The notes beneath the pieces were generated by a model. It ran no database searches and was not told the DNA's origin. It was given only the letters and a program-made list of their open reading frames with translations. Shown one piece after another: positions 450-33,675 of a stretch of DNA of 33,675 nt. Each line of letters begins with the position of its first letter. Position 1 is the first letter of the stretch. This DNA is from a virus. The DNA is taken from IMG/VR virus record IMGVR_UViG_3300042379_001002, positions 1 to 33,675 of that record; one strand, 5' to 3'. A program made the translations under genes and the position numbers.

Positions 450-711
450 TTGAATCAGCAGCCTGGGCGCGTGGTTCGGGGACGTTCAAGTCGATCAGCG
501 GCACACGGCAATCATGTCGGCACGGTTTGCCTGATCGCCACATATCCCGCCAGCCGCATATCATGCCAGCCGCATATCACGATTGAACGATCATCATGAA
601 GATGGGACAGCCGTATAGCCGATTATGAGGATAGCCCCTTATCCAGCCTTCACGCCTTCATGGCGTGTGGATGTGTGGCAATGCCGACAGATGGATCGAA
701 CGGCTGTAAAC
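450..711. promoter_or_regulatory. Repeat-rich leader upstream of RHH gene; 16-bp tandem repeat at 549-580
   Basis: There is no convincing gene here. Two tandem 16-bp units, GCCAGCCGCATATCAT (549-564) and the same with a final C (565-580), sit in a stretch where CATATC, GATAGCC and GATCG words recur at roughly 8- or 16-bp spacing up to the ATG at 712. The layout resembles the much clearer octamer array upstream of the related RHH gene at 27525. Inference: operator or centromere-like binding region for the RHH protein. Confidence 0.45.
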
Positions 712-13199: not shown

Positions 13200-13500
13200 A
13201 TGAAGTGCTACCTAGACAATTTTGATAGGAGGACTGGGAGATAGTAGAGAAGGATTATCCCCCAAAGAGCCATGAGTGGCAATGCACCAGTCCCAATTAT
13301 CTGGGTAAGGTATTGGCTCAGGACTCGTTTCCGAAACGATCTCCCACGTAACTAACGGCGATTGCCGCGTCAATTGGATCACCTGTTGTCCGCTTGTGGA
13401 TGTTGCTTATTGCGGCCATCCGGTTTGCAGGATTGACTCGCGGTGCAGAAATGATCATTTCGCGATCTGATTCAGAGTCGGACGCTTGTCCCCCCTGCCC
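13052..13500. repeat. Second copy of the 1-449 duplication
   Basis: This copy is in the intact context: start of the HsdR-N-like gene, intergenic DNA and the RHH gene C-terminus. Homology to copy 1 ends at the CCCCTGCCC run (13490-13505), which here is repeated (CCCTGCCCTGCCCC) and encodes the Gly-rich linker. Confidence 0.9.
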
Positions 13501-13797
13501 TGCCCCGTCCAAACCTGAGGCATTCGGATTGTCGCTTGTCGATTTGATCCCAGCATCTAGGCGTAAGGTTTTCCCAGTCTCCATCTTAACCATGCCACGA
13601 ATCAAATCGGATTCTGTGCGAGGTAGCTGAGCCAGGTCTTTCTGAATCATTGTCTGGATGAGATCGGACTGTGTTAGTTTCCGTGATTGAGCCATGTAAC
13701 TAAGGCATGAAAGCCATTCGACGTCCATACGCACAGTCAATCGGTCACGGTTGGCATCTGGACTAACTGACGTCTTGACGTCTTTTTGCTTTGCCAT
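13318..13797 (-). CDS. RHH-type DNA-binding protein with GAGQGG linker and tail
   Basis: A 159-aa protein. Residues 18-56 fit an RHH fold (strand DRLTVRMD, helix WLSCLSYMAQSRK, helix TQSDLIQTMIQKDL). Residues 60-95 form an added linker, residues 98-103 are GAGQGG, and the tail (SAPRVNPANRMAAISN ... GDPIDAAIAVSY) is a divergent version of the tail in the RHH proteins at 712 and 27525. ATG 13797 has GGAGACG upstream. It is followed on the same strand by the HsdR-N-like gene 118 bp on. Inference: regulator or partition-type DNA binder. Confidence 0.65.
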   Translation of the reverse strand: MAKQKDVKTSVSPDANRDRLTVRMDVEWLSCLSYMAQSRKLTQSDLIQTMIQKDLAQLPRTESDLIRGMVKMETGKTLRLDAGIKSTSDNPNASGLDGAGQGGQASDSESDREMIISAPRVNPANRMAAISNIHKRTTGDPIDAAIAVSYVGDRFGNES

Positions 13798-16032: not shown

Positions 16033-16064
16033 GCATGTATACTCGGTGAAGTCTTCGCAAGACT
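16015..16064 (+). promoter_or_regulatory. Promoter and operator of the HTH gene
   Basis: A -35 TTGTGT (16015-16020) and a -10 TATACT (16038-16043) are 17 bp apart. The perfect dyad AGTCTT-CGC-AAGACT (16050-16064) covers the expected start of transcription. A near-copy lies at 16348-16362, before the next gene. Confidence 0.6.
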
Positions 16065-16081
16065 ATACAAGGGGTGTGAAC

Positions 16082-16285
16082 ATGATGGTTGAGAACGACT
16101 TGAATCGGTGGGTATCGAGACGAAGAGCCTCGCAGATCGTGGGCCTGGGATATGAACGCACAATTAGATTCCTGACAGGGTCTGACGTTCGTAAACGCGA
16201 AGTCCCGTTGGGAGAAAACAGACGTACTGTCCAGTACTGGCTTCCAGATGTCTTGAGCCTTAACAACGAACCAAAGGCCAGCTAA
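16082..16285 (+). CDS. Small HTH DNA-binding protein (excisionase/MerR-like)
   Basis: A 67-aa protein. NRWVSRRRASQIVGLGYERTIRFLTG resembles the winged helix-turn-helix start of excisionase-type proteins ('vsrreAa-llGv-y-t---l--'), followed by a short wing (REVPLGENRRTVQYWLPDVL). ATG 16082 (or 16085) follows AAGGGGTG. It is the first gene of the polymerase operon. The paired dyads at 16050 and 16348 are candidate binding sites, suggesting it represses itself and the downstream replication genes. Confidence 0.65.
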   Translation: MMVENDLNRWVSRRRASQIVGLGYERTIRFLTGSDVRKREVPLGENRRTVQYWLPDVLSLNNEPKAS

Positions 16286-16298
16286 AGCAAAATCGAAA

Positions 16299-16331
16299 AC
16301 ACCCTCGGGAGTGAACCGAAGGTGCTTCCTT
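16299..16331 (+). terminator. Hairpin after the HTH gene (weak terminator or attenuator)
   Basis: A stem formed by CACCCTCGG and CCGAAGGTG with a GAGTGAA loop is followed by a short pyrimidine-rich run rather than a solid T-tract. It probably reduces rather than stops transcription into the polymerase operon. Confidence 0.4.
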
Positions 16332-16340
16332 AATTCATTT

Positions 16341-16367
16341 TCAAGAAAGTCTTCGCAGGACTCTTGA
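16341..16367 (+). promoter_or_regulatory. Second operator-like dyad
   Basis: AGTCTT-CGC-AGGACT (16348-16362) differs by one base from the dyad at 16050-16064. Outer arms TCAAGA / TCTTGA extend the symmetry. It immediately precedes the next ORF. Confidence 0.55.
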
Positions 16368-16636
16368 AGGTGGATGTCCCAACCAGTGCATTAGGTCAAA
16401 GGACAATCCAAGTGTATCCGAAAGATTCAGAGTTATCAAGGCGCGTTGGTATCGCCGGGCCATATTACCCTGGCTTAATCGCCAACCTTCCAAACAGGAA
16501 TCGACCAAGCGAATTTAGGCATGCCGGCCTAAGTCGTTCTGAGGTCAGAGAACACTATCCGCAACTTACCGAGATCGATGGTGGGTTTGCGGAAATCATC
16601 CTGGGCAGTCTGAACGATTGCGGGGTGATGACATGA
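16364..16636 (+). CDS. Unknown protein coupled to the polymerase
   Basis: A 90-aa protein from a TTG start at 16364 (a start further in is possible). The sequence ALGQRTIQVYPKDSELSRRVGIAGPYYPGLIANLPNRN ... GLSRSEVREHYPQL has no recognised motif. The stop codon overlaps the polymerase ATG (ATGA), indicating translational coupling and a shared operon. A role in replication is inferred from position only. Confidence 0.55.
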   Translation: MKVDVPTSALGQRTIQVYPKDSELSRRVGIAGPYYPGLIANLPNRNRPSEFRHAGLSRSEVREHYPQLTEIDGGFAEIILGSLNDCGVMT

Positions 16637-19600
16637 CAACACAAACGGTTTCCCTTCTCGACAAAGTCGTCTTTTTCGACGCGGAAGTCTATCGATCAGT
16701 CACTGGTGAACCACTCTGGTGTTTCGGGTTCCGTTGGTGGAAGGACGGTTCCGTCCGAACCGAGATCGTCGATTCACGCCAAGCTGACGCAATCAATCGC
16801 CTCAAAGGACTGTTGGCCAGGATTGAAGAGACTGAGCGGTTTCTAGTTGGATACAACTCGGATCAGTATGACTTGCCCCTCATGGCAAGGTTGATCGACA
16901 CCAACGGCAAGGCCGACGCCAAAGCGTTTTCTGATGAACTTATCAGTCACGGTTATTGGGATCGTCGCGATGTTCAAGGTTACCGAATCCGACCGGAACG
17001 AATCTGGCGTCATGTTATCAAACCGCAATTCACCCTCGACATCATCAAGCGGATTAAGGCGGAAAAGGAAGATGAGGGTCAAGGGGAGGGCAGTACGTCC
17101 CGCCTTAAAATGGTTGCGGCCATTCTGGGTCATCAAAACATATGGGATTTACCATTTCCACCAGACCAACCGATTTCCGATCAGGACTGGGAAGTCGTCA
17201 AAGAATACAATTTAAACGATCTTGAGACGACAGAATTCCTTTTCAGACAATACGAGATGGTCTATCTCGCCCTGGCGGAGTTGAGCCGGGAAGTTGGGGT
17301 TAGTCTGATGCGTTTCACTAACGCGCAGGTCACTGAGCAATATTTTCAGGCCGCCTTTAGATCCGCCACGGGGAATCCACCAGATCGACATGTTCCGCAG
17401 TCCTGGCCGTCATCAATCGATATTCCGATCTCCCCTCGCATCCCTTCCATTTCAACGAACGATGCCAAGGATTGGGAAGATCACGTCCGTAGTACGGTAT
17501 ATAAATCAACACCGCTTGATCTCAGATTAGATAAGGATGCACCCGAGTATCTGGCGACGTACCGGGAATTGGATTTCAACGGGTTTCGCGTCTCTGTTGG
17601 TTTCGGTGGAGTTCACTCCGTTCACGACGCGGCGAGGTTCGTTAAAACTGACGATGAGTTTCAAGTCATCTATGCGGACGTTGCAAGCTATTACCCGTTT
17701 CTGATCCTGGCCAACCGTATTCCGATGGGCCTGATGGGTGAAGTCGGGTTGGACATCTTCCAAGGTGTTGTTGATCGTCGTTTGGCGATGAAGGCCAAAT
17801 CCAAGGATAAATCTCTTCCAGAGGAAGAGCGGAAAGCCGCCAAGATTGCTGATGAAGCCCTGAAAATCATCATCAACGCAACATATGGCAAGCTGGGCGA
17901 TAAGTATTCCGTTTTGAACGCACCTGGTTCAAACAATGGCGTAACGATTTCTGGCCAGCTCGGCTTCTGCGCTCTGATCGAACGACTTCAACAAATCGGC
18001 GTGGAAATGCTATCGGCCAACACCGACGGATTGTTTATCCGTTGCCCCAAATCCGCCTTGGATATGTGCCGCCAGGTGATGAAGTATTGGCAAGAGTCGA
18101 TGAGGGTAAACCTTGAAGTTGAATTAAAAGACGCGGCCGTCATCAAGGATTCAAATAACTGGTTGGTGGTCAATCCCGATGGGTCGTTGGAAGGCAAGGG
18201 GGCTTACCGTCTTAAATCCCGAGCGACTCATGATAAGCATGATCCAGCCGTTATCAGTATCGCAATTCTAGAAACCTTGAGGCATGGAACCCCGCCAGAA
18301 GAGACGATCCGGAACCACCAAGACTTTTCCGACTTCCTTTTCTGTGCCAAGGGGAACGGCGGAACTATCGAGAGAAATGGCCAGAGGGAAAAGATAAAGA
18401 CGATTCGGGCCTATGCAGCAAGAAAGTCGTCTGGTTGGGCATTCTTAACCAGGAACGGCAACGAATCCAACCAGCTCCCCGACTCTATTGGTCTGTGTCT
18501 GAAACTTCCGGAAACCAACGCCAGACCGTCTGACATCAATTTTGACTGGTACGTTGGCCAAGTTCGTGAAGCCCTCCGCGTCTTCAATCTCCCATTCCGT
18601 CCGTCTGAGTTGAAGGGTGCTGCTCAGGATCTGTTTCTCAGATGGGGACTGATTCCAAGTCCGGCTCGCGGGAAAATCACAAGTCGAGGGATTCGGATCA
18701 AGGGTGAAGCGATTTCGTTTGTAGACTGGGACAGAACACTCACTCTGAAGGTCTATACTGGTCCAAAACCAGGAGATATAGACGGCGCAACACCTGTTAT
18801 CGTTCTGGATATCGACAAGCCGGACGCATGGTTTGCTTTCCTTGGTGAAGATCTTGCCAAAATATCTGAGTTGAACCCCTTAACAGTCACCAAAACAACA
18901 ACAGCGGATGTCCACCTTGCCCAAGCACGTGGAAAGCTCATTTTTAGGATCGATAATCCAGATCACCGGCTATTCACAAGGTTTCGGAAAGAAACCGAAT
19001 CGAAATTGCTGGAGAAGGCCGGAATAGAGATTTTTAACGGGCAAGGGACTGTTGCGGCTTATGGTGAAGCCGATGGCGGAAAGCAGTATAAGATTGATGG
19101 AACCCTTGTAACCCTTCCCGAGTGGCTGGAAAGCCGGTTGATTGAAATTGTGGGCAAGGGTTCGTCAAAACAATCCAGCGGTAGAAAGTCGAGTCGGAAA
19201 GAATCTGTTTTTGAAGAACCCGACTGGGAAGCCATCTTCAAACGATTGGCCGATGATTTTGACGAGCGTTTCGCTGGTGTCACCTTCTTTTCGGAACCCA
19301 GAAAGGTCAAGCAAGACGACGGATCCACAGACAACCGGTTCGCGGCTAGAATGCGTTGCCCTGGTGGACGTGAGTCACATGATTCACGCAAGAGTGAACA
19401 CCGAGAAGCGGAATTATTCTTGGATGCTCGCGATGGTGGGCCGGTTTTCAAATGTCATCACAAGACTTGCCGATTCCAAGCGAAATTTGACCAATGGCGA
19501 TGGAAACCTAACCCGGAACCGACACCACCAACCTTGAGACCTCTGGGAGGTTATACGGGCCTTAAAATCGCCTCTGATACCATCTCAGACATTGGATCGC

Positions 19601-21780
19601 TGATCGGTGCCACGAAAGGCTTAAAACTCATCAGGGCAGCTGTGGGGGCTGGTAAAACCCATGGTTCGGCGGTTGCCGCAATCCAGGCCGCCAGAGGAGA
19701 CCGTAAGACTTATTTTGTGACATCGACGAAACAACTCGCCAATGAGTTCATCACCAAGGTTCGGGACTTTGCGCCAGACTTGCATGAACGTATCGCATTT
19801 GGTCGGGATGAAATTAATACCAAGTTGGAAACCGAAGATGTAGCCTCAATCGATGAGGTTCAATTTAAAGAGGGCGATAGTGATTCGCCTTTATCTTTGG
19901 AGACTATAGCAGATGACAAAATCCTGATCCGGGTTATATGTCACGAAGCCTTAAACCGTCGCGAATTCTCAAAATATATGAGGACTAACTGGGATCTTAT
20001 CCTGAAAGACGCGGTTAGCGGCGGGAACCCTCTGGTTATAGTCGATGAATTCGACAGCTTCGTCTCTAATCTAGAGCAGCGATTTCAATTCGCCTATAGA
20101 TATCGGGACATCAACAACCCCAGGTATGGGCAGTTCTTTTCCGTACCTCTGGCGGAGTGTCCGGCCAATACACATGTTAACGCCAGGGGTTATGAATCTT
20201 GTGAAGGTTGTAATCGGTTCGATACGTCCGGTTCCCTCATCACCAATATTTCATATCGAACGGTCGAACACAAATCGCCTTTTTTTGTAATGCGGGCCAC
20301 AGCGAACGAAGAGGTTCAACAACGGCCGGACGGGGTGATTGTGAAACTTGATATAGATGATTTCACCCTGGGCGAAGAAGTTATCGTTGAAGGACGCGTC
20401 AGACTCCGTCCGGTTCTGGAATTCAAGGGTAAACCTATCGACGCGGCAACGCGGAAAGCTCTCCCAAGGTTGGCTTATCGCGGAGACTTCATTGAAGCAC
20501 AAAAGGAAGGTGTAAGCAGCATCACTGATATCTGGTCGCATCTTTTCGGGTCTCTGGTTTGTCCAACAATCAAATCGCACCACCCTTTATCCAAGGAAAC
20601 AGGCCAGATCCTTAGCCGCGATGAAGTTCTGGCAATGAATCCTATCGGTCGTTCCAATATCGTTGACTATCCGATCCGGACTTGTGAAACGCCTTATATT
20701 TCAGGGATCGACGGAACCCCGCTTGAAATGATCCGGGACCTAGCCGATAAGGGCGCCGATATCGTGTTGATGTCCGCAACTCTGAGCGAAACAACGTTGG
20801 ATGTCACACGCCAGACGATTGGAGACTTGCCGGTTGTCGAGGTCGAAACCAAAAACAAGCCGATAGCCGCGTTAACTGTTGTCTGTGTTCACAATAACGA
20901 TGATATACCGATTCGCCTTGTGGATGTCCGACCCCGCTGGTTGCGGAAACTTCAAGCGAATGAAGAGCATGACGCTTTGGGCAAGTTTCTTTTCTTCTTC
21001 CCAAGCCTCAAAACGAGGGACTCGGCTGTCAATAATCACTGGACACGCGACGCGACGGGATTAAATTTCGCCGTTGCTAAAGGTTCTGGTCAAGATTTTG
21101 GCGGATGGCGAGGAACAACCGCTCATGAAGAAGTCGTCGGAACCGTTGGAACACAACGCCAACCCATAGGCCGGGGCTATGACGGTACGGAAATCACGAT
21201 GATTGTCATGGATACCAGATCGAACCGCTTGGCGGCCGACATCATCACCCGCTTGCCCAAGGAAGGTGAAGAGATCCAGGAGATTATCACCCGAGCGTGT
21301 GCCGAAGAACGTCGCGTCACTTGCGGGCAGAACGTTGGGCGGAATCTTCGCGGGCCTGAGGATAAGCGGGCCGTCACGGTCTTGTTAAATACATCAGAGG
21401 CGGAAGCTCGCGAAATCATGGCCATGGTTCAAGCGGAAAAGCGGGCCAAGGAAATTAATTATGTGACGTATTACGGAGTCTGTGAATCTATATTCTCTGA
21501 CGCGGAAGACTGGTTGGCCGGGGCATATGAGTGGGCTAAAACTGAGAAGTATGATTCGCTAAACATCCCCAAGGTCAAGGCACGGCGAATCGATCGAACT
21601 AACACTAAATCAAATCGGGATGAATCTGTGCTTGTCTCGCTTCTCTCTCTGGCGGAAGAAGCCAAGGCCAAGGGAGTGAAATGGCACGAATTTAGCCACA
21701 AGCATAACTTGACGCGTAAGGATAAACAAATACAAGGGTTGCGTCAGATAATGCTAAACATCTTCGAGGATTGTGAATGA
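16633..21780 (+). CDS. Fusion of family-B DNA polymerase, zinc finger and SF2 helicase
   Basis: A 1715-aa protein. Proofreading exonuclease: FFDAEVY (Asp16/Glu18), GYNSDQYD (75-80), YNLNDLE (192-198). Polymerase palm: motif A IYADVASYYP (~346-355), motif B KIIINATYGKLG (~411-422), motif C ANTDG (~463-467; Asp465 kept, first Asp replaced by Asn). A zinc-finger region follows (~906-943: CPGGRESH ... FKCHHKTC), like those of primase-type replication proteins. The C-terminal helicase has Walker A AAVGAGKTHG (~1003-1012), Walker B LVIVDEFDSF (~1134), LMSATLSETT (~1377) and QNVGRNLRG (~1566, motif VI-like). I chose ATG 16633 (GGGGTG upstream, ATGA overlap with the previous gene) over TTG 16618. Inference: one polypeptide unwinds and copies the element. 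Most family-B polymerases are half this length or less. Confidence 0.9.
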   Translation: MTTQTVSLLDKVVFFDAEVYRSVTGEPLWCFGFRWWKDGSVRTEIVDSRQADAINRLKGLLARIEETERFLVGYNSDQYDLPLMARLIDTNGKADAKAFSDELISHGYWDRRDVQGYRIRPERIWRHVIKPQFTLDIIKRIKAEKEDEGQGEGSTSRLKMVAAILGHQNIWDLPFPPDQPISDQDWEVVKEYNLNDLETTEFLFRQYEMVYLALAELSREVGVSLMRFTNAQVTEQYFQAAFRSATGNPPDRHVPQSWPSSIDIPISPRIPSISTNDAKDWEDHVRSTVYKSTPLDLRLDKDAPEYLATYRELDFNGFRVSVGFGGVHSVHDAARFVKTDDEFQVIYADVASYYPFLILANRIPMGLMGEVGLDIFQGVVDRRLAMKAKSKDKSLPEEERKAAKIADEALKIIINATYGKLGDKYSVLNAPGSNNGVTISGQLGFCALIERLQQIGVEMLSANTDGLFIRCPKSALDMCRQVMKYWQESMRVNLEVELKDAAVIKDSNNWLVVNPDGSLEGKGAYRLKSRATHDKHDPAVISIAILETLRHGTPPEETIRNHQDFSDFLFCAKGNGGTIERNGQREKIKTIRAYAARKSSGWAFLTRNGNESNQLPDSIGLCLKLPETNARPSDINFDWYVGQVREALRVFNLPFRPSELKGAAQDLFLRWGLIPSPARGKITSRGIRIKGEAISFVDWDRTLTLKVYTGPKPGDIDGATPVIVLDIDKPDAWFAFLGEDLAKISELNPLTVTKTTTADVHLAQARGKLIFRIDNPDHRLFTRFRKETESKLLEKAGIEIFNGQGTVAAYGEADGGKQYKIDGTLVTLPEWLESRLIEIVGKGSSKQSSGRKSSRKESVFEEPDWEAIFKRLADDFDERFAGVTFFSEPRKVKQDDGSTDNRFAARMRCPGGRESHDSRKSEHREAELFLDARDGGPVFKCHHKTCRFQAKFDQWRWKPNPEPTPPTLRPLGGYTGLKIASDTISDIGSLIGATKGLKLIRAAVGAGKTHGSAVAAIQAARGDRKTYFVTSTKQLANEFITKVRDFAPDLHERIAFGRDEINTKLETEDVASIDEVQFKEGDSDSPLSLETIADDKILIRVICHEALNRREFSKYMRTNWDLILKDAVSGGNPLVIVDEFDSFVSNLEQRFQFAYRYRDINNPRYGQFFSVPLAECPANTHVNARGYESCEGCNRFDTSGSLITNISYRTVEHKSPFFVMRATANEEVQQRPDGVIVKLDIDDFTLGEEVIVEGRVRLRPVLEFKGKPIDAATRKALPRLAYRGDFIEAQKEGVSSITDIWSHLFGSLVCPTIKSHHPLSKETGQILSRDEVLAMNPIGRSNIVDYPIRTCETPYISGIDGTPLEMIRDLADKGADIVLMSATLSETTLDVTRQTIGDLPVVEVETKNKPIAALTVVCVHNNDDIPIRLVDVRPRWLRKLQANEEHDALGKFLFFFPSLKTRDSAVNNHWTRDATGLNFAVAKGSGQDFGGWRGTTAHEEVVGTVGTQRQPIGRGYDGTEITMIVMDTRSNRLAADIITRLPKEGEEIQEIITRACAEERRVTCGQNVGRNLRGPEDKRAVTVLLNTSEAEAREIMAMVQAEKRAKEINYVTYYGVCESIFSDAEDWLAGAYEWAKTEKYDSLNIPKVKARRIDRTNTKSNRDESVLVSLLSLAEEAKAKGVKWHEFSHKHNLTRKDKQIQGLRQIMLNIFEDCE

Positions 21781-22091
21781 ATCAAACCCGTTCCCCGCGA
21801 CTTCTCCAACCAAATGTTGAAGGGTTATTGAGAAAGCGAGCCGATGGGGTCTGGGGTGTTGAACGAAAGTTACGATGGATTGTCACCAGATACCCAGATG
21901 CGTCCTGGGAGTGGGCCGACGTGTTGAGTCGTTGGGTTGATCGTCACCAGAATCCGCCCAAGGTCTGGGATGTGGTCGAAGTCGTATTACTTGATTGGCT
22001 TCTTGACCCCGCTCTGAGCGATGACACCCGAAAGACGATGAGGGAGATCTTCGACGCTATACCCGACTGGCGGGATGACAAAACATCTTAA
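21777..22091 (+). CDS. Unknown protein coupled to the polymerase-helicase
   Basis: A 104-aa protein, Trp-rich and helical (WGVERKLRWIVTRYPDASWEWADVLSRWVDRH, VWDVVEVVLLDWLLDPALSDDTRKTMREIF). Its ATG overlaps the polymerase stop (ATGA), so it is the last gene of the replication operon. There is no Cys, signal or membrane motif. A replication accessory role is plausible from coupling only. Confidence 0.6.
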   Translation: MNQTRSPRLLQPNVEGLLRKRADGVWGVERKLRWIVTRYPDASWEWADVLSRWVDRHQNPPKVWDVVEVVLLDWLLDPALSDDTRKTMREIFDAIPDWRDDKTS

Positions 22092-22232
22092 GTATCTATA
22101 TTTTAATTGTTTATGTCTTATTTAGCCCGAATTGTCAGATGTGGCTAGTGGATAAACGCAAATCCTTCTTTTTGTAACCACTTCAGTAGTAGGTGAATAC
22201 AACAAAGAAGAATTACATAAGTAAAAGCGCGA

Positions 22233-22400
22233 GTTAGTACGTAAGGTTTGCACCGAATAAGGACTTAAGTATATATCTTACAAATGTATGATTCACTTTT
22301 TTGCGTTTGCCCTATATAGAGGGGAAAGTGAAAAAAGTGACAATAACCATTTGTAAAACCATACGTAAGTCTTTATTTGATGCAAACGTTACGTACTAAC
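22233..22400. repeat. 168-bp imperfect palindrome, candidate origin
   Basis: The left arm begins GTTAGTACGTAA and the right arm ends TTACGTACTAAC. Along ~70 bp per arm most positions pair by eye, including GTTTGCA/TGCAAAC, GACTTA/TAAGTC, TTACAAATG/CATTTGTAA and TCACTTTTTT/AAAAAAGTGA. About 27 bp (CCCTATATAGAGGGG in the centre) separate the arms. It lies in a 600-bp AT-rich gap directly after the polymerase operon. Candidate replication origin, telomere-resolution-like site or packaging start. Confidence 0.8.
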
Positions 22401-22557
22401 TTTTTGGTCGCTTTGGGAGTGAGAAGTACCAGGACATACTATTGGATTTGGTTATACTAAAAAAACATCACTTTTTTTTGGTTGGCATCCACTGTTTATA
22501 CCTATACCCTTATGGAGCAACACATTACCAAAATTGGATAAACAAGTCCTATTTGTT

Positions 22558-22646
22558 AATTTTCATCCCGTGTATAACACGATTGTTCGATTCAAAAACT
22601 TATGGTATAATAACTTAAACTTGGTTGGTGATACGGGATGAAAATT
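22558..22646 (+). promoter_or_regulatory. Promoter of the terminase/recombinase genes inside a 14-bp inverted repeat
   Basis: Perfect arms AATTTTCATCCCGT (22558-22571) and ACGGGATGAAAATT (22633-22646) enclose a promoter: -35 TTGTTC (22583-22588) and -10 TATAAT (22606-22611), 17 bp apart. A short ORF from ATG 22638 overlaps the next gene in another frame and is not called. Confidence 0.6.
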
Positions 22647-22711
22647 CCTGTAAAAGGTAAACCCTTGATTTGGCCAACCTTACGACTAACTTTTGATGGA
22701 GGGTCGAAGTC

Positions 22712-23155
22712 ATGGGCGCAAGAAGACACCCTGTCAGGGTTGAGCCAAGTCCGATCGCTGGAATGCTCAGGAGGCTCCAAACCTCTGGCGGTTGGACGGT
22801 CGGGTTGGACGACGGACTCAAGGGACGTGTTATAGGTCGCCTGGCCAAAATCATCGAAGCGGATGACGTATCACCCGCCGTCCAGGTTGCGGCCGCATCT
22901 TGCCTCATGAAGGCAAGCCAGGTTGAGAATGAAACCATCAACACCATGATGAAGATGATAGAGACAACAGAATTAACAGACCGCTTGGCCAATATCGAAA
23001 AGCAACTCGCCGAAGCGGGAACGGCCAAGGTTGATTATATAGACATCGATGTCTTGGGGTTTAGCGATGATTCCTTGGGCCTTATGGAAGACGACGAACC
23101 GGCCGTTAACCCTCTGGCGGAAACCTTCCGGATTCGGGCCGATGAAGACTTTTGA
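22712..23155 (+). CDS. Small-terminase-like protein
   Basis: A 147-aa protein preceded by GGAGGG. The centre is helical (VIGRLAKIIEADDVSPAVQVAAASCLMKASQVENETINTMMKMIE) followed by a short coiled coil (TDRLANIEKQLAEAG) and an acidic C-terminus (DIDVLGFSDDSLGLMEDDEP). There is no unique motif. I call it small-terminase-like from size, helical/coiled-coil/acidic layout and its place upstream of a terminase ATPase. Small terminases recognise pac/cos DNA; the long palindrome 300 bp upstream could be the site. Moderate-to-low certainty on function. Confidence 0.5.
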   Translation: MGARRHPVRVEPSPIAGMLRRLQTSGGWTVGLDDGLKGRVIGRLAKIIEADDVSPAVQVAAASCLMKASQVENETINTMMKMIETTELTDRLANIEKQLAEAGTAKVDYIDIDVLGFSDDSLGLMEDDEPAVNPLAETFRIRADEDF

Positions 23156-23173
23156 AATCTTCCCGATAAGCTC

Positions 23174-23233
23174 TTGCCTATCATGCGAGGGGTGTTACAA
23201 TAAAGACGTTCGGAAACATCAACAATGTAACAC
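23174..23233 (+). promoter_or_regulatory. Promoter and res-like dyad of recombinase 3
   Basis: A -35 TTGCCT (23174-23179) and a -10 TACAAT (23196-23201) are 16 bp apart. The perfect arms GTGTTACA (23192-23199) and TGTAACAC (23226-23233) overlap the promoter. The arm words resemble those of the sites before the two twin recombinases (GGTGTTA). Confidence 0.55.
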
Positions 23234-23258
23234 TCTTAACAGGGAAGTCGTTAGAAAC

Positions 23259-23987
23259 ATGCAAGATCTTACAATAAAAGGTGTTAAGGTCAATTGTGCC
23301 GTTGGCTATGTTCGCTTGTCGAGCAAGGCGGCCAAAGAAGACTCGGTTTCCATAGAGCGACAAAAGGCGGAAGTGATCTCCTGGTGTAATCGTAACGGGT
23401 TCAACTTGACCAATATCTATACGGATACCAAGGTTTCCGGTCGGAAGGTCAACCGGATCGGTTTGGACGCGGCCATTGGAGAAGCTGCTATGCGTGGTTG
23501 CGCTCTTGTCGCCTATTCATTGGACCGGCTTATCAGAGACCATGACGTATTGAGACGGTTGAAAGACGAGCGCATCACGTTTCGCCTTTTAGATATGCCA
23601 GAAACCAATGAACTGGTTATCGATACTCTTGTCGGGGTTGCCAAGGCTTATAGCCAACAAATTAGCGACAAGATGAGGAAGTATCATCAACACCGGAAAG
23701 AGCAAGTTTTAGCCGGACTGGCGACACCACATCCAACACCCCTGCCCAACCCAAAACCGGAACAATATCAACCCGCCTTGAAAGCAGCACGGGCCAAGCG
23801 GACTAAGAAGGCGGATACTTTCAACGCGCACGCCTGGCGGTTCATTGAACCGATGGCTCAACAGGGGAAATCTACTCGCGGTATTTGTGAAGAACTCAAC
23901 ATCAAAGGATTCCAAACCTCAACCGGCAAGCCCTGGACTAACGTCGCCGTCTTCCGGATCATCCAGAAGTTCAACCCCGCCTCTTAA
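23259..23987 (+). CDS. Serine recombinase 3 (module recombinase)
   Basis: A 242-aa protein. The catalytic domain has VGYVRLSSKAAKEDSVSIERQ (catalytic Ser21 or Ser22), KVSGRKVNRIGLDAAI, VAYSLDRLIRD (S-x-D-R-L-x-R) and AYSQQISDKMRKYHQHRK. The C-terminal part has a helix-turn-helix with 'GKSTRGICEELNIKGFQTSTGKPWTNVAVFRII', the Recombinase-domain pattern. It is clearly different from the twins at 3196 and 31985. I chose ATG 23259 because homology begins just after it, although the Shine-Dalgarno is weak. It lies between the terminase-like genes and is likely responsible for integrating or resolving this module. Confidence 0.9.
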   Translation: MQDLTIKGVKVNCAVGYVRLSSKAAKEDSVSIERQKAEVISWCNRNGFNLTNIYTDTKVSGRKVNRIGLDAAIGEAAMRGCALVAYSLDRLIRDHDVLRRLKDERITFRLLDMPETNELVIDTLVGVAKAYSQQISDKMRKYHQHRKEQVLAGLATPHPTPLPNPKPEQYQPALKAARAKRTKKADTFNAHAWRFIEPMAQQGKSTRGICEELNIKGFQTSTGKPWTNVAVFRIIQKFNPAS

Positions 23988-24107
23988 GGGCGGGAAACCG
24001 GCCGAGGAATTCGCGGATTTTATAGGGATTTCGGTCAACGTGTGGTCGGCACCCACCAAAAATATCAGGGATTTTAACGGGAAGATTTTGACACCTGAGG
24101 CGAATCA

Positions 24108-24935
24108 ATGGCGAAGTTGAAAACAAGGTTGGACGCAATATCTGATGTCCTAAGCAACCGCCATCGTGACGAGAAGATGCGACATGCTCTGGAGGTTCTT
24201 CGCGACAACCCGCGACAGATGTTTCCGCTTCTTGGCATGGATTGCGACGCCTGGCAACTCAACCTCATGAAAAAGCTCGCTGGTGAAGAATGTGAGCCGA
24301 TTAAGCGGGCCGTTATTGCCTGTGGTCGTCAGGTTGGAAAGACTGCTTTGCTATCCGTTTATGGGGCCTATGCGACGATGTGTGAAGGAAAGACTGTAGC
24401 CGTTAGCGCACCATCCTTCCGCCAGTCCTTGGAGCTATCCCAGAAAATTAGACGGATTATCCAGCGATTCAACCTTGTTTCCATCATGAAAGACGCGGTT
24501 ATCGATTTGCGACTCTCAAACGGCGGCCGCCTTGTTGCGCTTCCACCATCGGGGACTGGCCGGGGTTTCACCCTGGACGCGTTACTAGTCGATGAAGCCG
24601 CCTTCCTGGGGGAGCGATCCGACCTGATTGAAGCTCTCACCCCTGCTCTCGCCTTGTCTGACGGTCAACTTATCCTTGCTTCATCGCCTGGGCCACCTAT
24701 AGGCCTTCTTTTCCAAGCCTGGGGAAGCGAAAACTGGCATAAAACCAAAGTCAGATGTGATGAGTGTAAGCGAATCTCACCCGAGTTTTTGTCGCAGCAA
24801 CGCGAACTTCTGGGAGAAGACGCCTACAAGCGGGAGTTTGAAGCGGAATTTGTGGATATGGGCGGTTCACTTATCACGGCTGAATCTATCGACGGTTGTG
24901 CCTCATCTTATGCGACTGAATGGCTATCTATCTGA
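24108..24935 (+). CDS. Terminase large subunit, ATPase half
   Basis: A 275-aa protein with phage terminase ATPase signatures: CDAWQLNLM adenine-binding region, Walker A GRQVGKT (73-79), APSFRQSLEL, Walker B LLVDEAAF (159-166), and coupling motif ASSPGPPIGLLFQAW. The protein ends shortly after the linker to the nuclease (FEAEFVDMGGSLITAESID), where usual terminases continue. The nuclease is the next ORF in another frame. ATP-driven DNA packaging is the family role. No portal, capsid or tail genes are present in the window. GAGG precedes the ATG. Confidence 0.88.
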   Translation: MAKLKTRLDAISDVLSNRHRDEKMRHALEVLRDNPRQMFPLLGMDCDAWQLNLMKKLAGEECEPIKRAVIACGRQVGKTALLSVYGAYATMCEGKTVAVSAPSFRQSLELSQKIRRIIQRFNLVSIMKDAVIDLRLSNGGRLVALPPSGTGRGFTLDALLVDEAAFLGERSDLIEALTPALALSDGQLILASSPGPPIGLLFQAWGSENWHKTKVRCDECKRISPEFLSQQRELLGEDAYKREFEAEFVDMGGSLITAESIDGCASSYATEWLSI

Positions 24936-24945
24936 GGGTGACACA

Positions 24946-25773
24946 ATGGCTATTGATACGAACCTGATTGCGGCTATCCGGAATGACAAATACGATGCCT
25001 GGGCTAACTCCCCTACCCCGAGACGATCAGGTATAACAACAGACCATGACAACCACCTTCCGAAATACAAAGACGATCGCCTTGACTACGTTCGCATTTC
25101 TGGCGATGGAGACGGTTGGCGTCGAATTGTTTCCTGGGACCTGGGGAAACTGAGGGATCCAAGCGCGATTGTCATTCTGAAATGGAGAATGATTGAGACG
25201 GGACGCGATCGAGTAAACAGGACTGATTTCGATTCTGGTCGCCAATCGTCGTATTGTCGCGAAAATTACATGACACCGGTATATCAAGTGATTGGGGCTA
25301 ACGAATACAAGGAAGACTATACCGATACGATTGGCAGACTTCGACGTATGCAAGAGAATAGCCGGTTGGGAAACTGTACACTCATCTTCGACGCTACCGG
25401 GGTTGGTGTTGCCGTGGAAGAGCAACTTCGCCATCTATCAGGGTTCGACCAGGTCATGGGAATGACGATCACTGGCGGGGATACTATGAAAGCAAAAGGT
25501 ATGTTTACGTCGGCTGGAAAATCACGGCTCCTGAGCGATACGGAACAAGTCATCAACCAAAAACGTATTCGCACTCCTGAGAATAACCCAGAATTCCAGA
25601 AACTCCGTAACCAGATCACAGGCCTTCAAGTTGAAGAAACGATTCAAGGCTATTATAAGACAGTCGATGATCGTTCATCAGGTCACCACTCTGACTTGCT
25701 CATGGCGTTGGCCATGGGCGTGGCCTGGGGAGAATACCAAGCAGCTAAGTATCGGCGACTGATCGCGGTATGA
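24946..25773 (+). CDS. Terminase nuclease half (RNase H-like)
   Basis: A 275-aa protein starting MAIDTNLIAAIRND, with GAGGGTG 5 bp upstream. It carries the terminase nuclease pattern: IVSWDLGKLRDPSAIVIL (first Asp), TLIFDATGVGVAVEEQL (second acidic residue) and SGHHSDLLMALAMGVAW (last Asp). The typical second half of a large terminase is thus a separate gene 10 bp downstream of the ATPase gene. Having its own ribosome-binding site argues for a genuine two-subunit enzyme rather than a fresh frameshift, but a sequencing error must be excluded. Confidence 0.8.
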   Translation: MAIDTNLIAAIRNDKYDAWANSPTPRRSGITTDHDNHLPKYKDDRLDYVRISGDGDGWRRIVSWDLGKLRDPSAIVILKWRMIETGRDRVNRTDFDSGRQSSYCRENYMTPVYQVIGANEYKEDYTDTIGRLRRMQENSRLGNCTLIFDATGVGVAVEEQLRHLSGFDQVMGMTITGGDTMKAKGMFTSAGKSRLLSDTEQVINQKRIRTPENNPEFQKLRNQITGLQVEETIQGYYKTVDDRSSGHHSDLLMALAMGVAWGEYQAAKYRRLIAV

Positions 25774-25884
25774 TTGCCCCACCAACTATAGGATAAGGTG
25801 ATTTAAGGTAGATATTTACGGATTTATTTACAGTGACTCACAGGGTCGGGGAGAACGAACCAGAGTGATCAGGCTTGCATCTGG

Positions 25885-25895
25885 CATGATGCCAA
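25885..25895. repeat. 11-bp direct repeat, candidate right attachment site
   Basis: CATGATGCCAA matches 15879-15889. It abuts the start of the duplicated block (25894 on); the other copy of that block (32736) begins at the same base but lacks the ATGATGCC, as expected if something joined here. It lies within the palindromic word GGCATGATGCC. Confidence 0.35.
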
Positions 25896-26829
25896 AATAT
25901 TTCTCGGGTATTTCTTCGAATTCCAAAGAATACATGAAGTCTTTTTCGTGGGATGTGTTCTAGTAGGGTGAACGAGAAGTAACAGGAATTCTTAAAAAGG
26001 TTGTCTCTCACAGACGGCTCTATTGAGTTTTTAACAATACGCTTGTTTAGTTCCACCAGTTGATGAAGGCAAGACGCTTTTGTCGCTGGTGGAGTTATTG
26101 TTGGGTCTGATCCGACAGTTATCCAACATGACTGAATTGACGTAAAGTATGGGTGCGACCGGAATTGCGCTGCGTTAAACGCACAGTCTTCAATGTAAGT
26201 CCGGTCATGTTAGCACTTTGTGACGATTGTGCGTCACCATTTATTCCAGGCACCATGCCCTTGATGCTCGGTGTTCTTACGGTGTTCTTACCGGACCAGA
26301 TAAGCCCATATCGACAGGATTGGGGTTGATCCTTTGTTACCCACTGTCAGAACTGGATTAGCTCGTGTAGACTCTTTTAGATCTTTTAACTAGGAGCAAA
26401 CATCTCAGATGAAAATGCTTAGGCACATATGAAGCGGGTTGATCCGAATACAGTCGCTCATCGAAAAACACTCCGTGGAAGAGATGAGGTAACTTACGAT
26501 TGTCCGAATTGCCAAGCAAGTCTTAAAAACGATTTGTCTGATGCCGGTATCCGAGATAGCTGTCCTCATTGCGGATGCGAATTCTTTGTGCCTGGTGATG
26601 AAAGACTAGATGGACTAAAGCAAGCGGAGTCGCAAGGGAAGTTGCGAAAGAAGGAAGAAGCCGAAGAGTCGAAACGTAATCAAGAACAAGCTGATAAACG
26701 CATCCGTGAGCTAGAATTGGTGGCTAAGAATCGAGAGCAAGAGCAAGAGAGACAAAAGGTTTTACTTAAATCAACGCACTATATGTCATTAGGTTTCATG
26801 CATCTCGTCTCTGTTTTGACCAAAGGGAT
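25894..26829. repeat. ~940-bp duplicated block, copy A (includes dispersed repeat copy 2)
   Basis: It is nearly identical to 32736-33675, with scattered substitutions and small indels. The first ~215 bp are the dispersed repeat also seen inverted at 1887-2091. The next ~330 bp form a structured leader: GACCGGA ... TCCGGTC (26157-26206), TGCGTT-A-AACGCA, GTGACG-ATTGTG-CGTCAC (about 26219-26236), and two GGTGTTCTTAC words. The zinc-ribbon gene at 26429 follows. There is no transposase. Confidence 0.88.
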
Positions 26830-27076: not shown

Positions 27077-27351
27077 TTGAATCCGACTAATCAAGAACAG
27101 GTTGGTGCTGAATTCAGATAAGAGATACAACGGCCTGATTCGCGGATTTTGTGGCAAGTAGTCGAGGATGTGTACGCGGCTTGCACTTTGACGGAAAAAC
27201 AAAAAAGAGGGTGTATAAATCATGTAACAAACGACCGGATTGAGCATCGGGAGAATTCGCGGCCACAGCCCCCCTGCTCTTGGTTCGCTCGGTGTCGCCT
27301 CGGTGTTCTTATTGGACGTTGGCCCGGCTGTGGTTCGTTCAGATCAGGCTT
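27077..27351. other. Intergenic before the octamer array
   Basis: I see no supported gene. Open frames crossing this stretch run into the octamer array and have skewed composition. CCCCCCTGCTC at about 27269 resembles the G-rich linker word on the other strand. Confidence 0.3.
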
Positions 27352-27511
27352 GCGGCTTGGAGCAATTGCGGTTTGGCGGGTCCACGGCCTGACGGTTTTG
27401 CGGCCCAACGGCCTCGCGGTCTCACGGTCGGTCTCAACTGCGGCCCAGCGATGTGCCGATAGACCGATAGACCGAACTCGCGGCCCAACGGTTTCGCGGT
27501 CCCACGGTCTG
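27352..27511 (+). repeat. Octamer array, candidate centromere/operator of the RHH protein
   Basis: Twenty consecutive 8-bp cells run in one register up to 13 bp before the ATG at 27525, most fitting (A/G/C)CG(G/A)YYYN. Examples are ACGGCCTG, ACGGTTTT, GCGGCCCA, ACGGCCTC, GCGGTCTC, CCGATAGA (twice), GCGGCCCA, ACGGTTTC, GCGGTCCC and ACGGTCTG; GCGGCCCA occurs three times. A few cells (GAGCAATT, TCTCAACT, GCGATGTG) deviate. Direct 7-8-bp repeats upstream of an RHH gene are the hallmark of plasmid partition sites bound cooperatively by RHH dimers. Confidence 0.75.
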
Positions 27512-27524
27512 GAGACCTACAGGC

Positions 27525-27905
27525 ATGGCGGCCCCCCGTAAAACCTCAAAACCGATCCCCCGTCAAGCTGCTGCGGAGCGGCAGCGGCTCCAACTCTCCC
27601 CATTGGTCGAGAGTGCCAAGCGGTTCAAACTGGCGGCTGTATCGCTTAATTTATCGGAAACTGAGTTATTTGAACGGCTTGTAGAATTAAACTTCCCCGG
27701 CTTGCATGTGCAGAATTTAAGTAAGAGTCCATTCTTTGGCGGGGCAGGGCAGGGGGGCGAAGATTCGCCAGCTCCACCCGCCCAGGTTGGTGTGATGATC
27801 CCACGATCACCAACGCACAATCGAATTGGGATGATTGCTCGATCGGCTCATATGCCGGTTGATATGGCCATTGAATCCCACGACGACGATTCGCTTCCAT
27901 CCTGA
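27525..27905 (+). CDS. RHH protein, candidate centromere-binding partition factor
   Basis: A 126-aa protein. Residues 1-20 are basic and flexible (MAAPRKTSKPIPRQAAAERQ). Residues 21-60 align with the RHH core of the 712 protein (RLQLSPLVESAKRFKLAAVSLNLSETELFERLVELNFPGLHVQN versus VQLSL ... FSGVHVRG). Residues 72-78 are GGAGQGG. Residues 95-126 form the shared tail, THNRIGMIARSAHMPVDMAIESHDDDSLPS apart from a few residues. The octamer array directly upstream is the likely target for partition and autoregulation. No ParA ATPase is found within the window, so either a host ParA, a distant gene or a ParA-free mechanism would be needed. An alternative role is a transcriptional repressor. Confidence 0.7.
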   Translation: MAAPRKTSKPIPRQAAAERQRLQLSPLVESAKRFKLAAVSLNLSETELFERLVELNFPGLHVQNLSKSPFFGGAGQGGEDSPAPPAQVGVMIPRSPTHNRIGMIARSAHMPVDMAIESHDDDSLPS

Positions 27906-27970
27906 GTCATCACACCGGCCCATAAACCTCGCCTAAGCGATCGGTGACCATCGGCGGCGACAAGTTTGGA

Positions 27971-28157: not shown

Positions 28158-28610
28158 GTAAGTCCTTACAAAGCAAGGAACTCTCACAGAAGCATGGCAA
28201 GTTTTGACAGAAGCATAAAAACCCTGCGTTTCCCTCACAGCCATGCTTCTGTGATTGTGTCGCCGTAAACCATTACTGTATAGAAGTAACCACAGAAGCA
28301 TGATCGCCATACTTCTGTCGATGTGTCGTTTTCTGACAGAAGCATAGGATTGACAGAAGCATGGCTCTTATACTTCTGTTAAATAATATTATTATATAAG
28401 GGTTTACATGCTACTAAATGACAGAAGCATGGATTTTGGAAATACCCGGGGACTTTATGCTTCTGTCGATCCGGTTTTACTGATGTAGTTCTCGTAAACC
28501 CTTTTACAGAAAGGAACTCTCACAGAAGCATGACGATGGAATGTGTCGTGTGAAATACACAAACCCTTACCATATAACAAACTCTGTGTGCCTATAACAA
28601 ACCCCCGGCG
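28158..28610. repeat. Iteron cluster, candidate replication origin
   Basis: ACAGAAGCAT occurs seven times forward (28186, 28207, 28292, 28336, 28353, 28421, 28522) and exactly in reverse at 28243 and 28457, with one-base variants at 28309 and 28370. An AT-rich patch (TTAAATAATATTATTATA, 28378-28396) lies inside. A longer ~40-bp repeat ending AAGGAACTCTCACAGAAGCAT is seen at 28158-28195 and 28494-28531. ATAACAAAC repeats follow near 28576-28604. The cluster lies directly after the 3' end of the primase-helicase gene. Iterons with an AT-rich unwinding region are typical of plasmid origins. No gene is supported from 27906 to 28660. Confidence 0.8.
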
Positions 28611-28660: not shown

Positions 28661-30898
28661 TCAATCGCTTGGCGGAATAAACCACTTGATTGCGCCGTGT
28701 CGCGGATTGGTGGACGCAATCTGTCCATTACCCTTCAGGTCTGCTCTGACGGCTCTGAATCGGTTGTTTGGTATCTCAGCCTTCTGCGCCCGTTCGTCCA
28801 GCTGGATGCTTGGTATCTCGCCATTATCCGATTCGCGGATAGTGCGGATGATCCACGTGATGATCTGGTCATTCGGCCACGTCTTGATTGACGACGATCT
28901 ACCGCCAGTCTCAGCTTCAATGATGCGTGCCTCGATTGCGCTGTATTCGTCGTCTGTCGTTGTGATGGTCACGGATGGAATGATCCCTTGTCCCTGTCGT
29001 CGCAATCGCATGTAGCCGATGGCAACGCCTTCTCTACCAACATTCGACTTTGCTATGCCGATCATGACATCATCGGGACCAGCGGCTGGATCCTTGGCAA
29101 TCACGATTGTCTGGCGGGGTTTGTTCGTCCAGGCTGCGCTTCCCATGATCCGATCTCGTAGCCTGCACTTGGCTTTAGAAAAGTGCTTGATGAACACAAC
29201 TGCCGCGCCTGTGTCCTCGGCCAGCTCCCTCAGATGGTTCAAATCTGATTTGACTGATCCATCGTTGTTTCCCTGTGACTTCTCAGATAGGTAGTCATCG
29301 CCAGTATCGACCACGATCAGGCTCAGTGGTTCGTTGGGCAGGAGTGCCATATACCGTGTGATCTGGTCACGAATTTCGGCCATCGTGCTGATGTCTGTTT
29401 TGCCGGGACTCCACACCCGGTCCATACGATCACAGCCGATTTTCTTGATGTCGGCTCGCGGTCCGTCCCCGCCTTCGTCCTGCGACAAATAGCACACAAG
29501 TCCCCCGGCGTACTTCGGGTTGATTGCGTAGTGAAAGAAGTCCTGATTATTGGCGATGGCGGCGGCTAGGTGCTTAAGGAATAGCGACTTCCCTGTCCCT
29601 CCATCACCCGCAACACTTGAAAGCCTTTTCATAGGGAACAGGCTTTCGCCATGTGGCGTTTCAAGTAGGAATTCCAAGTCATCCACAATCACGTCATTCT
29701 CTGCGGTTCCACCGTTCAGCCTTGCGGCCATCGTGCTGGAACGGATGTGATGAGCATGAATATCAAGGAACTCTAATACTGCGGCAGCATGGCCGCTATT
29801 ACAACCTTCTAACAGGTCATCAACAGGCATGGCGTCGCGTACCACGGACACGTTATTCCACTTGCCAGATGACAGCACAATCTTCGCGACACCTTTGGCG
29901 AACTCCGCGCCGGTAGCGTCATTGTCAGGCCAGATGATGATCTTGCGATCACCTCGCAGCTGCGTCCAGTCTGTCCCCGCAAAAGCCGATCCACCGTTAG
30001 CAGAAGCCACGGCCACAAGCGGGAACGTTTCCGATGTCATATCGTTGATAAGGTCGGCTTTCTTTTCGCCTTCAACAATGACCTGCGACACCAGTGGACC
30101 GATGGCGGCCAGACGCTTCCCACCGTACAGGGGTAACAATCGCTTCGGGTCGGTATCGTCCTGATTAGGGTACCAACGGCCATTACGGTGAACCTCGAAA
30201 GGTATCGGTCCGATCTTCTTTCCGGTGTCGCGATGAAAGAATCTGACTTTTTTGTAAGTCTCTGTGTAGTCGTCGTATACTACTCGCCGCATAGGGTCGG
30301 CATCCCGATTACCTGCGGCGTACTGATGGTAGTTTTCCAGGCACGCCTCAAACGTTTCGAATCCCGGGTTCGCCTTGTAATCAACCTTTGGCTTAGGCTT
30401 TGGTTGTTTGGCTTTGGCTGCCTTGCTGCTTAGTCCGTTGTATCCAACGATCTCGTTAGCGGCTGTTTCCATGTCGCACTGTCGGACAGCCATAACGAGA
30501 TCAATAGCCGATCCATCGGCACCACAGGAGAAGCATTTCCAGTGAATGCCATCGGGGTTAATACTCGCGCTCGGGTTGTGGTCATCGTGTGACGGACAAA
30601 GGAACTTACCCTTAGTAACCACAATTCCAAGCCGGCTTGCGGCTTGCTCTATCGGGATCCTCGCGTCCGCATAACGCGGTGATGTTTGATCGGGTTCGAC
30701 TTTGCGCAGTGCCGGCGGCGTGCTATTATGCATGTGGACAGGTGCTTTCTGTTCAAAAATCTCGCCCACGCTGCTCGATACAGCGTGGGCACCTTTGTTT
30801 TTATCACAATCAGCCACGAACAGTAAGCCCGGTTCCACCTTGGGTGTGAAGTCGCGGCCATATCGCTCGGGAATGGGTTCGCCAGTTCGCGTCATCAT
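28661..30898 (-). CDS. Primase-helicase (CHC2 zinc finger, TOPRIM, RepA-like ATPase)
   Basis: A 745-aa protein. A CHC2-type zinc finger lies at ~99-130 (FLCPSHDDHNPSASI ... WKCFSCGADG). The TOPRIM region has QVIVEGEKKADLI (~265-280) and KIIIWPDNDATG. A RepA/AAA_25-type helicase domain has Walker A VAGDGGTGKSLF (~428-440), Walker B-like LSLIVVDTGDD and AAVVFIKHFSKA. Together these give priming and unwinding for plasmid or phage replication. I chose ATG 30898 (GTGGAGG directly upstream) rather than a longer frame from 30931. It overlaps the small ORF before it and follows an HTH gene. The iteron cluster lies past its 3' end. Confidence 0.88.
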   Translation of the reverse strand: MMTRTGEPIPERYGRDFTPKVEPGLLFVADCDKNKGAHAVSSSVGEIFEQKAPVHMHNSTPPALRKVEPDQTSPRYADARIPIEQAASRLGIVVTKGKFLCPSHDDHNPSASINPDGIHWKCFSCGADGSAIDLVMAVRQCDMETAANEIVGYNGLSSKAAKAKQPKPKPKVDYKANPGFETFEACLENYHQYAAGNRDADPMRRVVYDDYTETYKKVRFFHRDTGKKIGPIPFEVHRNGRWYPNQDDTDPKRLLPLYGGKRLAAIGPLVSQVIVEGEKKADLINDMTSETFPLVAVASANGGSAFAGTDWTQLRGDRKIIIWPDNDATGAEFAKGVAKIVLSSGKWNNVSVVRDAMPVDDLLEGCNSGHAAAVLEFLDIHAHHIRSSTMAARLNGGTAENDVIVDDLEFLLETPHGESLFPMKRLSSVAGDGGTGKSLFLKHLAAAIANNQDFFHYAINPKYAGGLVCYLSQDEGGDGPRADIKKIGCDRMDRVWSPGKTDISTMAEIRDQITRYMALLPNEPLSLIVVDTGDDYLSEKSQGNNDGSVKSDLNHLRELAEDTGAAVVFIKHFSKAKCRLRDRIMGSAAWTNKPRQTIVIAKDPAAGPDDVMIGIAKSNVGREGVAIGYMRLRRQGQGIIPSVTITTTDDEYSAIEARIIEAETGGRSSSIKTWPNDQIITWIIRTIRESDNGEIPSIQLDERAQKAEIPNNRFRAVRADLKGNGQIASTNPRHGAIKWFIPPSD

Positions 30899-31032
30899 TT
30901 CGCCTCCACATGTCCTGCGGGCATGTTGCAATAAAACATGTGGGAGGTCTTAGCTGTAACCGCGAGTAATCCAGATTTACGCGAGGGTTCTGCGGCCTCT
31001 GTGAGGCTCTGTGGCGTGCTGTTGGTTTTCAT
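30895..31032 (-). CDS. Possible 45-aa peptide between HTH and primase
   Basis: The ORF reads MKTNSTPQSLTEAAEPSRKSG ... KTSHMFYCNMPAGHVEAK. Its stop overlaps the primase start (ATGATGA), which hints at coupling. Its own ribosome-binding site is poor. No homologue is recognised. Confidence 0.35.
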   Translation of the reverse strand: MKTNSTPQSLTEAAEPSRKSGLLAVTAKTSHMFYCNMPAGHVEAK

Positions 31033-32696: not shown

Positions 32697-32736
32697 ACTA
32701 TAACACCTCTTCAACGGTCATTCAAGTGGTGTTACA
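32697..32736 (-). promoter_or_regulatory. Res-like site 2 overlapping the recombinase promoter
   Basis: Arms TATAACACCTCTT (32699-32711) and AAGTGGTGTTACA (32724-32736) pair at 11 of 13 positions. On the minus strand a -35 TTGAAT (complement of 32720-32725) and a -10 TATAGT (complement of 32697-32702) are 17 bp apart, exactly as at site 1. Its outer edge coincides with the start of the duplicated block at 32736. Confidence 0.65.
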
Positions 32737-33675
32737 AAATATTTCTCAGGTGTATTTTCGGATTCCCAAGAATACATGAAGTCTTTTTCGTGGGATGTGT
32801 TCTAGTGGGGTGGACGAGAGGTAATAGGATTTCTTGAAAAGGTTGTCTGCCCCACAGACGGCTCTATTGAGTTTTTAACAATACGCTTGTTTAGTTCCAC
32901 CAGTTGATGAAGGCAAGACGCTTTTGTCGCTGGTGGAGTTATTGTTGGGTCTTAGTCCTACAGGTATCCAGCATGACCGAATTGACGTAAAGTATTGGTG
33001 CGACCGGAATTGCGCTGCGTTAAACGCACAGTCTTCAATGTAAGTCCGGTCATGTTAGCACTTTGTGACGATTGTGCGTCACTATTTATTCCAGGCACCC
33101 TACCCTTGATCCTCGGTGTTCTTCCGGTGTTCTTACCGGACCAAATAAGCCCATATCGACAGGATTGGGGGTTGATCCTTTATTACCCACTGTCAGAACT
33201 AGATTAGCTCGTGTAGACTCTTTTGGATCTTTTAACTAGGGGCAAACATCTCAGATGAAAATGCTTAGGAACATATGAAGCGGGTTGATCCGAATACAGT
33301 CGCTCATCGAAAAACACTCCGTGGAAGAGACGAGGTAACTTACGATTGTCCGAATTGCCAAGCAAGTCTTAAAAACGATTTGTCTGATGCCGGTATCCGA
33401 GATAGCTGTCCTCATTGCGGATGCGAATTCTTTGTGCCTGGTGATGAAAGACTAAATGTACTAAAGCAACCGGAGTCGCAAGGGAAGTTGCGAAAGAAGC
33501 AAGAAGCCGATGAGTCGAAACGTAATCAAGAACAAGCTGATAGACGCGTCCGTGAGCTAGAATTGGTGGCTAAGAATCGAGAGCAAGAGCAAGAGAGACA
33601 AAAGGTTTTACTTAAATCAACGCACTATATGTCATTAGGTTTCATGCATCTCGTCTCTGTTTTGACCAAAGGGAT
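32736..33675. repeat. Duplicated block, copy B (includes dispersed repeat copy 3)
   Basis: It matches 25894-26829 to the end of the window. It contains the third dispersed repeat (32736-32953), the structured leader (32954-33274) and the start of a second zinc-ribbon membrane gene. There is no gene from 32654 to 33274. Confidence 0.88.
33275..33675 (+). CDS. Zinc-ribbon coiled-coil membrane protein, partial second copy
   Basis: It starts MKRVDPNTVAHRKTLRGRDEVTYDCPNCQ and remains open to the right edge (133 codons). It keeps both Cys pairs and the coiled coil, with a few changes against the 26429 copy (for example NVLKQPE for DGLKQAE). The reading frame is intact over the visible part, so both copies seem to have been maintained. 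The membrane half lies outside the window. Confidence 0.75.
   Translation, partial: MKRVDPNTVAHRKTLRGRDEVTYDCPNCQASLKNDLSDAGIRDSCPHCGCEFFVPGDERLNVLKQPESQGKLRKKQEADESKRNQEQADRRVRELELVAKNREQEQERQKVLLKSTHYMSLGFMHLVSVLTKG

Follow-up and report, generated by a model that had tools for sequence, protein, structure and literature searches.

A degenerate array of 8-bp cells precedes the gene of a probable ribbon-helix-helix protein near an iteron-type array in a virus record

The window, i.e. the whole 33,675-nucleotide stretch of the virus record IMGVR_UViG_3300042379_001002, contains the gene of a probable ribbon-helix-helix (RHH) protein, which is directly preceded by a tandem array of short cells (array 1) and followed by an iteron-type array and a primase-helicase gene. 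A second stretch of the same period (array 2) lies upstream of a paralogous gene, and a third, diverged relative is encoded elsewhere in the window. Coordinates are given in Table 1; in the following, the two paralogs are designated by their start positions, 27525 and 712.

Table 1. Positions of the features discussed in the text
Feature	Position	Strand	Remarks
Array 1	27352..27511	+	20 degenerate 8-bp cells, consensus (G/A/C)CG(G/A) + 4 free bases
GGAG, plausible ribosome-binding site	27511..27514	+	adjoins array 1, 10 nt before ATG 27525; inferred from direct reading
Probable RHH protein, 126 aa	27525..27905	+	AF2 model, Foldseek, profile match
Iteron-type array	28186..28531	.	11 x ACAGAAGCAT, 7 forward + 4 reverse
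A+T-rich stretch inside iteron array	28383..28400	.	read directly
Primase-helicase gene (CHC2 zinc finger + AAA_25)	28661..30931	-	Pfam; adjoins iterons
Array 2	about 514..705	+	second period-8 stretch, more degenerate, other wording, before paralog 712
Paralogous probable RHH protein, 119 aa	712..1071	+	from ATG 712; frame open from ATG 625
Third, diverged relative	13318..13797	-	same linker/tail pattern; also on contigs L003 and L004

The initial annotation had parsed the 160 bp before ATG 27525 into consecutive 8-bp cells in one register, and this parsing was confirmed: there are 20 cells, and 13 bp separate the end of the array from the start codon. Cells 1 to 10, from 27352, read GCGGCTTG GAGCAATT GCGGTTTG GCGGGTCC ACGGCCTG ACGGTTTT GCGGCCCA ACGGCCTC GCGGTCTC ACGGTCGG; cells 11 to 20, from 27432, read TCTCAACT GCGGCCCA GCGATGTG CCGATAGA CCGATAGA CCGAACTC GCGGCCCA ACGGTTTC GCGGTCCC ACGGTCTG. 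CG occupies cell positions 2 and 3 in 19 of the 20 cells, 18 cells have G or A at position 4, and position 8 is random. What is conserved is thus the core CG(G/A) and not the octamer as a whole, and two cells, at 27360 (GAGCAATT) and at 27432 (TCTCAACT), lack the full core. The repeat counts given earlier were right: GCGGCCCA occurs three times (27400, 27440, 27480) at a spacing of exactly 40 bp, and CCGATAGA twice in tandem (27456, 27464). A 30-bp near-repeat, whose copies are 80 bp apart (27400/27480), indicates that duplication shaped the array.

The autocorrelation check that had been proposed bears out the period. At lags of 8, 16, 24 and 32 bp, the identity within array 1 is 0.48-0.50, compared with about 0.27 expected in shuffles (z 5.8-6.7), and none of 3000 dinucleotide shuffles reached these values; among the lags from 2 to 31, only multiples of 8 were raised. 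Summation of three harmonics gave z = 10.2, and the two halves of the array, tested separately, are both significant (z 9.8 and 7.4). With 0.505, array 1 scores highest for period 8 among all 160-bp stretches of the 33.7-kb window, the maximum of 20 shuffles of the window being 0.338. When the window was searched for four occurrences of (A/C/G)CG(G/A) at period 8, array 1 was the only match. Two different readings of this segment were rejected. RNA structure is not indicated, as the array folds no better than shuffles (z -0.17) and no Rfam family was found in the window. An open reading frame (27149-27541) runs through the array; it was dismissed as a gene, because a period of 8 does not fit codons.

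Protein 27525 consists of a basic N-terminal tail, an RHH core (about residues 19-56), a GAGQGG linker, and a conserved C-terminal tail. It matches no Pfam or PHROG family. The AF2 model contains helices at residues 28-40 and 45-56, with pLDDT values of 79-87 for this block and little confidence elsewhere. Foldseek searches with the models of proteins 27525 and 712 listed many RHH proteins (AmrZ, VapB; AvtR, Arc, CopG, CdbA, MatP), with no E-value below 0.6 and not to the exclusion of other folds. For a profile of the three relatives, the best PDB match was ParG at a non-significant E-value of 0.24. Model and matches argue with moderate force that protein 27525 probably adopts the RHH fold.

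Paralog 712 is 50% identical to protein 27525, the C-terminal tails being nearly identical, and matches Pfam RHH_10 at E 7e-4, below the cut-off. In period-8 score, the 200 bp upstream of its gene rank second in the window (0.403; z = 6.5); for 582-711 alone, z is 5.1. Since the two best period-8 stretches precede the two closest paralogs and are worded differently, array plus RHH gene appears to be a repeated module of diverging specificity. In DNA, the similarity of the two genes comprises only the tail and 36 bp past the stop codon (27777-27941 versus 943-1108); consequently, the DNA-binding domain and the array differ and the tail is common. The third relative has no period-8 array upstream, so that the pairing of array and gene is not universal in the family. 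On two IMG/VR contigs (L003 and L004) it is the only family member, with 99-100% identity. Searches of viral contigs, genomes, plasmids, and phages for homologs of the RHH proteins retrieved none but close copies of this third relative; none was found beyond three contigs, and relatives with arrays were not found elsewhere. The GAGQGG-type linker is encoded in all three relatives by GGGGCAGGGCAGGGG (13492-13506, 27741-27755, 904-918), which is exact in two of them and has two mismatches in the third. This sequence coincides with the repeat boundary 448/13500, and the linker is a possible site of domain exchange.

The iteron-type array begins 280 bp after gene 27525 and contains all matches of ACAGAAGCAT in the window; two of the 11 copies read ACAGAAGTAT, with one mismatch. 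It is probably a replication origin. Because array 1 and the RHH gene are located at this short distance from the iterons, beside the primase-helicase gene, a role in plasmid maintenance appears likely. No end repeats were found in the record, which may be incomplete and not the whole replicon. L003 (about 16.2 kb) carries end repeats of 127 bp and L004 (about 15.9 kb) end repeats of 99 bp; both are for this reason probably complete circles. Positions 10495-26488 of the window largely correspond to these contigs, which are 97-98% identical to much of its middle; the window is possibly a mosaic or a cointegrate. It contains direct repeats at 25893-26829 / 32735-33675 (95.5% identical) and 1-448 / 13052-13500 (98.9%), and part of the former recurs in inverted orientation at 1880-2089. 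A terminase-like gene (24108-25773) is split into the overlapping frames 24108-24935 and 24757-25773, with the same split in L004, and in the protein encoded by 16618-21780 (1720 aa) a family-B DNA polymerase (PolB) is fused to a DEAD-type helicase domain. The record further contains genes of serine recombinases and of a toxin of the ParE type. The A+T-rich intergenic region 22149-22401, which is common to L003 and L004, has a 170-bp inverted repeat and a weak period 8 (z 4.1) and is a possible second origin. The protein encoded by 9571-10443 has a PEP-CTERM-like sorting signal at its end (VPEPSTYAL...), and L003 encodes one that resembles it (552-1637).

That no ParA is visible, as had been noted initially, was corroborated by family searches: PF13614 and PF01656 are absent from the record, and PF13614 is absent from the two related circles as well. 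Nor does the record contain actin-type (PF06723) or tubulin-type (PF00091) motor genes, as would characterize ParMRC or TubZRC systems. With respect to type Ib ParABS systems, array 1 offers the anatomy of tandem short repeats beside the gene, and no cognate Walker ParA ATPase is encoded alongside in this record. Membership in ParABS thus fails on the missing ParA; the unit might conceivably still work like the ParG-parH half of such a system. A ParA may be encoded in a portion of the replicon that is missing from the assembly, or be supplied by the host.

As a positive control, the regions upstream of parFG in three ParG plasmids (L127-L129) were subjected to the same period-8 test; annotated ParG matched the ParG query sequence at 100%. 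Period 8 was detected with z-values of 5.5 and 9.5, and weakly (2.4) in a distant homolog, each region having a wording of its own (ACTC-, GAGC-, and ACAC-type). Given that these regions show period 8 in the same test, the architecture of array 1 is that of parH. A period of 8 bp is thus already known for RHH proteins, for example from the parH region of ParG plasmids, and the initial view that repeats of "7-bp or similar" are the norm of RHH centromeres had to be abandoned.

We lean towards the reading that array 1 is an operator or centromere-like site of protein 27525, which serves both autoregulation and plasmid maintenance. The prediction that the array is an RHH binding site is well supported indirectly, namely by the uneven conservation within the cells, by the second array before the paralog, and by the same period in parH. 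Binding of array 1 by protein 27525 and autoregulation are quite probable, whereas for a role of the unit in partition or copy control we see an even chance. In detail, RHH dimers would bind one per 8-bp cell via the core CGR, making one contact every 8 bp, and would coat the roughly 160 bp cooperatively, in the manner of ParG at parH. Since the array extends to the ribosome-binding site, such coating would repress gene 27525. The resulting filament would most likely also serve plasmid maintenance, because the unit adjoins the probable iteron origin and the primase gene; it could act as a copy-control site or as a partition site with a ParA from elsewhere. Paralog 712 and array 2 would then form another such module, with an address that differs.

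A test of mismatches by cell column addressed the question of whether array 1 is a binding site or MINISATELLITE. The mismatch counts of the eight columns are 10, 1, 1, 6, 10, 10, 9, and 14, and the hypothesis that a slipped repeat decays evenly at all positions is rejected (p ~5e-5). The null set came from viral contigs scanned for five RCGG at period 8; in most of the matches listed, the octamers are repeated in tandem without any change, and an RHH gene is not evident downstream. When the test was applied to 47 diverged arrays among these matches, with the five seed cells of each left out, p was below 0.01 in two cases only (L071 and L114), a comparison that is imperfect in that the extended arrays include flanks. 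The columns of the parH control, in a rigid register, were not uneven in the same test; unevenness therefore speaks for selection, but a centromere need not show it. A neutral octanucleotide minisatellite, made by slippage and having no cognate protein, would be in line with the frequency of RCGG-type octamer arrays in viral contigs, most of them without an evident RHH gene behind, with a similar degenerate array that precedes an unrelated gene in L032, and with the near-repeat 27400/27480, in which duplication is seen at work. However, the conservation of array 1 is uneven inside the cell, unlike that of most viral-contig octamer arrays, and two arrays of different wording precede two paralogs, which makes a neutral origin very unlikely.

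The anatomy is also explained by simple autoregulation or by copy control. It is common for RHH repressors to act on short sites in tandem (MetJ, CopG, omega). Array 1 could accordingly be an autoregulatory operator only, at which protein 27525 represses its own gene and perhaps the neighbouring replication genes and plays no part in segregation, the long array setting a steep, cooperative response. The position of the array, which stops 13 bp before the ATG, the absence of a motor gene from the record, and the example of omega (PMC9499535) are in agreement with this explanation. On the other hand, 20 cells are long for a mere operator, the parS sites of pSM19035 comprising 7-10 repeats (PMC9499535), and a site beside iterons suggests replicon maintenance; we therefore rate a pure operator as a lesser, though real, possibility. 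The opposite extreme is a segregation independent of ParA, in which the RHH-array complex alone secures inheritance, for example by nucleoid tethering. Its precedent is StbA of R388, which acts through 9-bp repeats and does not need StbB (PMC3098194), and no ParA was found in the record or in two related, probably complete circles. Yet the record may be incomplete and a ParA of the host may serve, so that StbA-like segregation is improbable, and we are just as doubtful that the unit works without any ParA. A similarly low probability applies to a ParA-less partition or incompatibility module of RHH protein and 8-bp array, in which the arrays of the paralogs would be private addresses and the shared C-terminal tail would contact a common partner.

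The pair 27525/712, in which the tails are nearly identical, the DNA-binding domains have diverged, and the two 8-bp arrays are worded differently, is a natural experiment on the co-evolution of RHH proteins and their centromere or operator arrays, which bears on how incompatibility specificities form. If stability turned out not to depend on ParA, the unit would be the analogue of StbA among RHH systems.

Among known systems, MetJ with its met boxes, an RHH repressor on 8-bp tandem sites, is comparable to array 1 and its probable RHH protein; MetJ differs in being a chromosomal metabolic regulator with few, palindromic boxes. Plasmid R388 is stabilised by StbA through 9-bp repeats, the ATPase StbB being dispensable (PMC3098194). 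StbA/stbDRs also can be likened to our unit in its layout: a small DNA-binding protein is encoded behind a direct-repeat array, but the repeats are 9 bp long with a spacing of 2 bp, and the operon contains the StbB ATPase. Omega (ParB) of pSM19035 is an RHH protein that binds a run of short repeats, which overlap with its own promoter, and combines partition and regulation (PMC9499535). The unit described here has a probable RHH protein and consecutive short repeats at its own gene in common with omega/parS; the latter differs by repeats of 7 bp, 7-10 of them per site, by six sites, and by a dedicated ParA (delta). For parH, tetramer boxes with AT-rich spacers have been described (PMC7308502). 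Unlike in ParG/parH, there is no ParF/ParA gene in this record, array 1 directly precedes the RHH gene, its core is the G+C-rich CGR where parH has ACTC and A+T-rich spacers, and protein 27525 has an extra C-terminal tail of about 60 aa and no significant sequence homology to ParG. In common with array 1, however, ParG/parH (TP228-type, type Ib) possesses degenerate short cores plus spacers, an 8-bp periodicity, an RHH protein (a probable one in our unit), and an array of comparable length (in L127, about 190 bp before parF), and its wording varies between relatives as does that of arrays 1 and 2.
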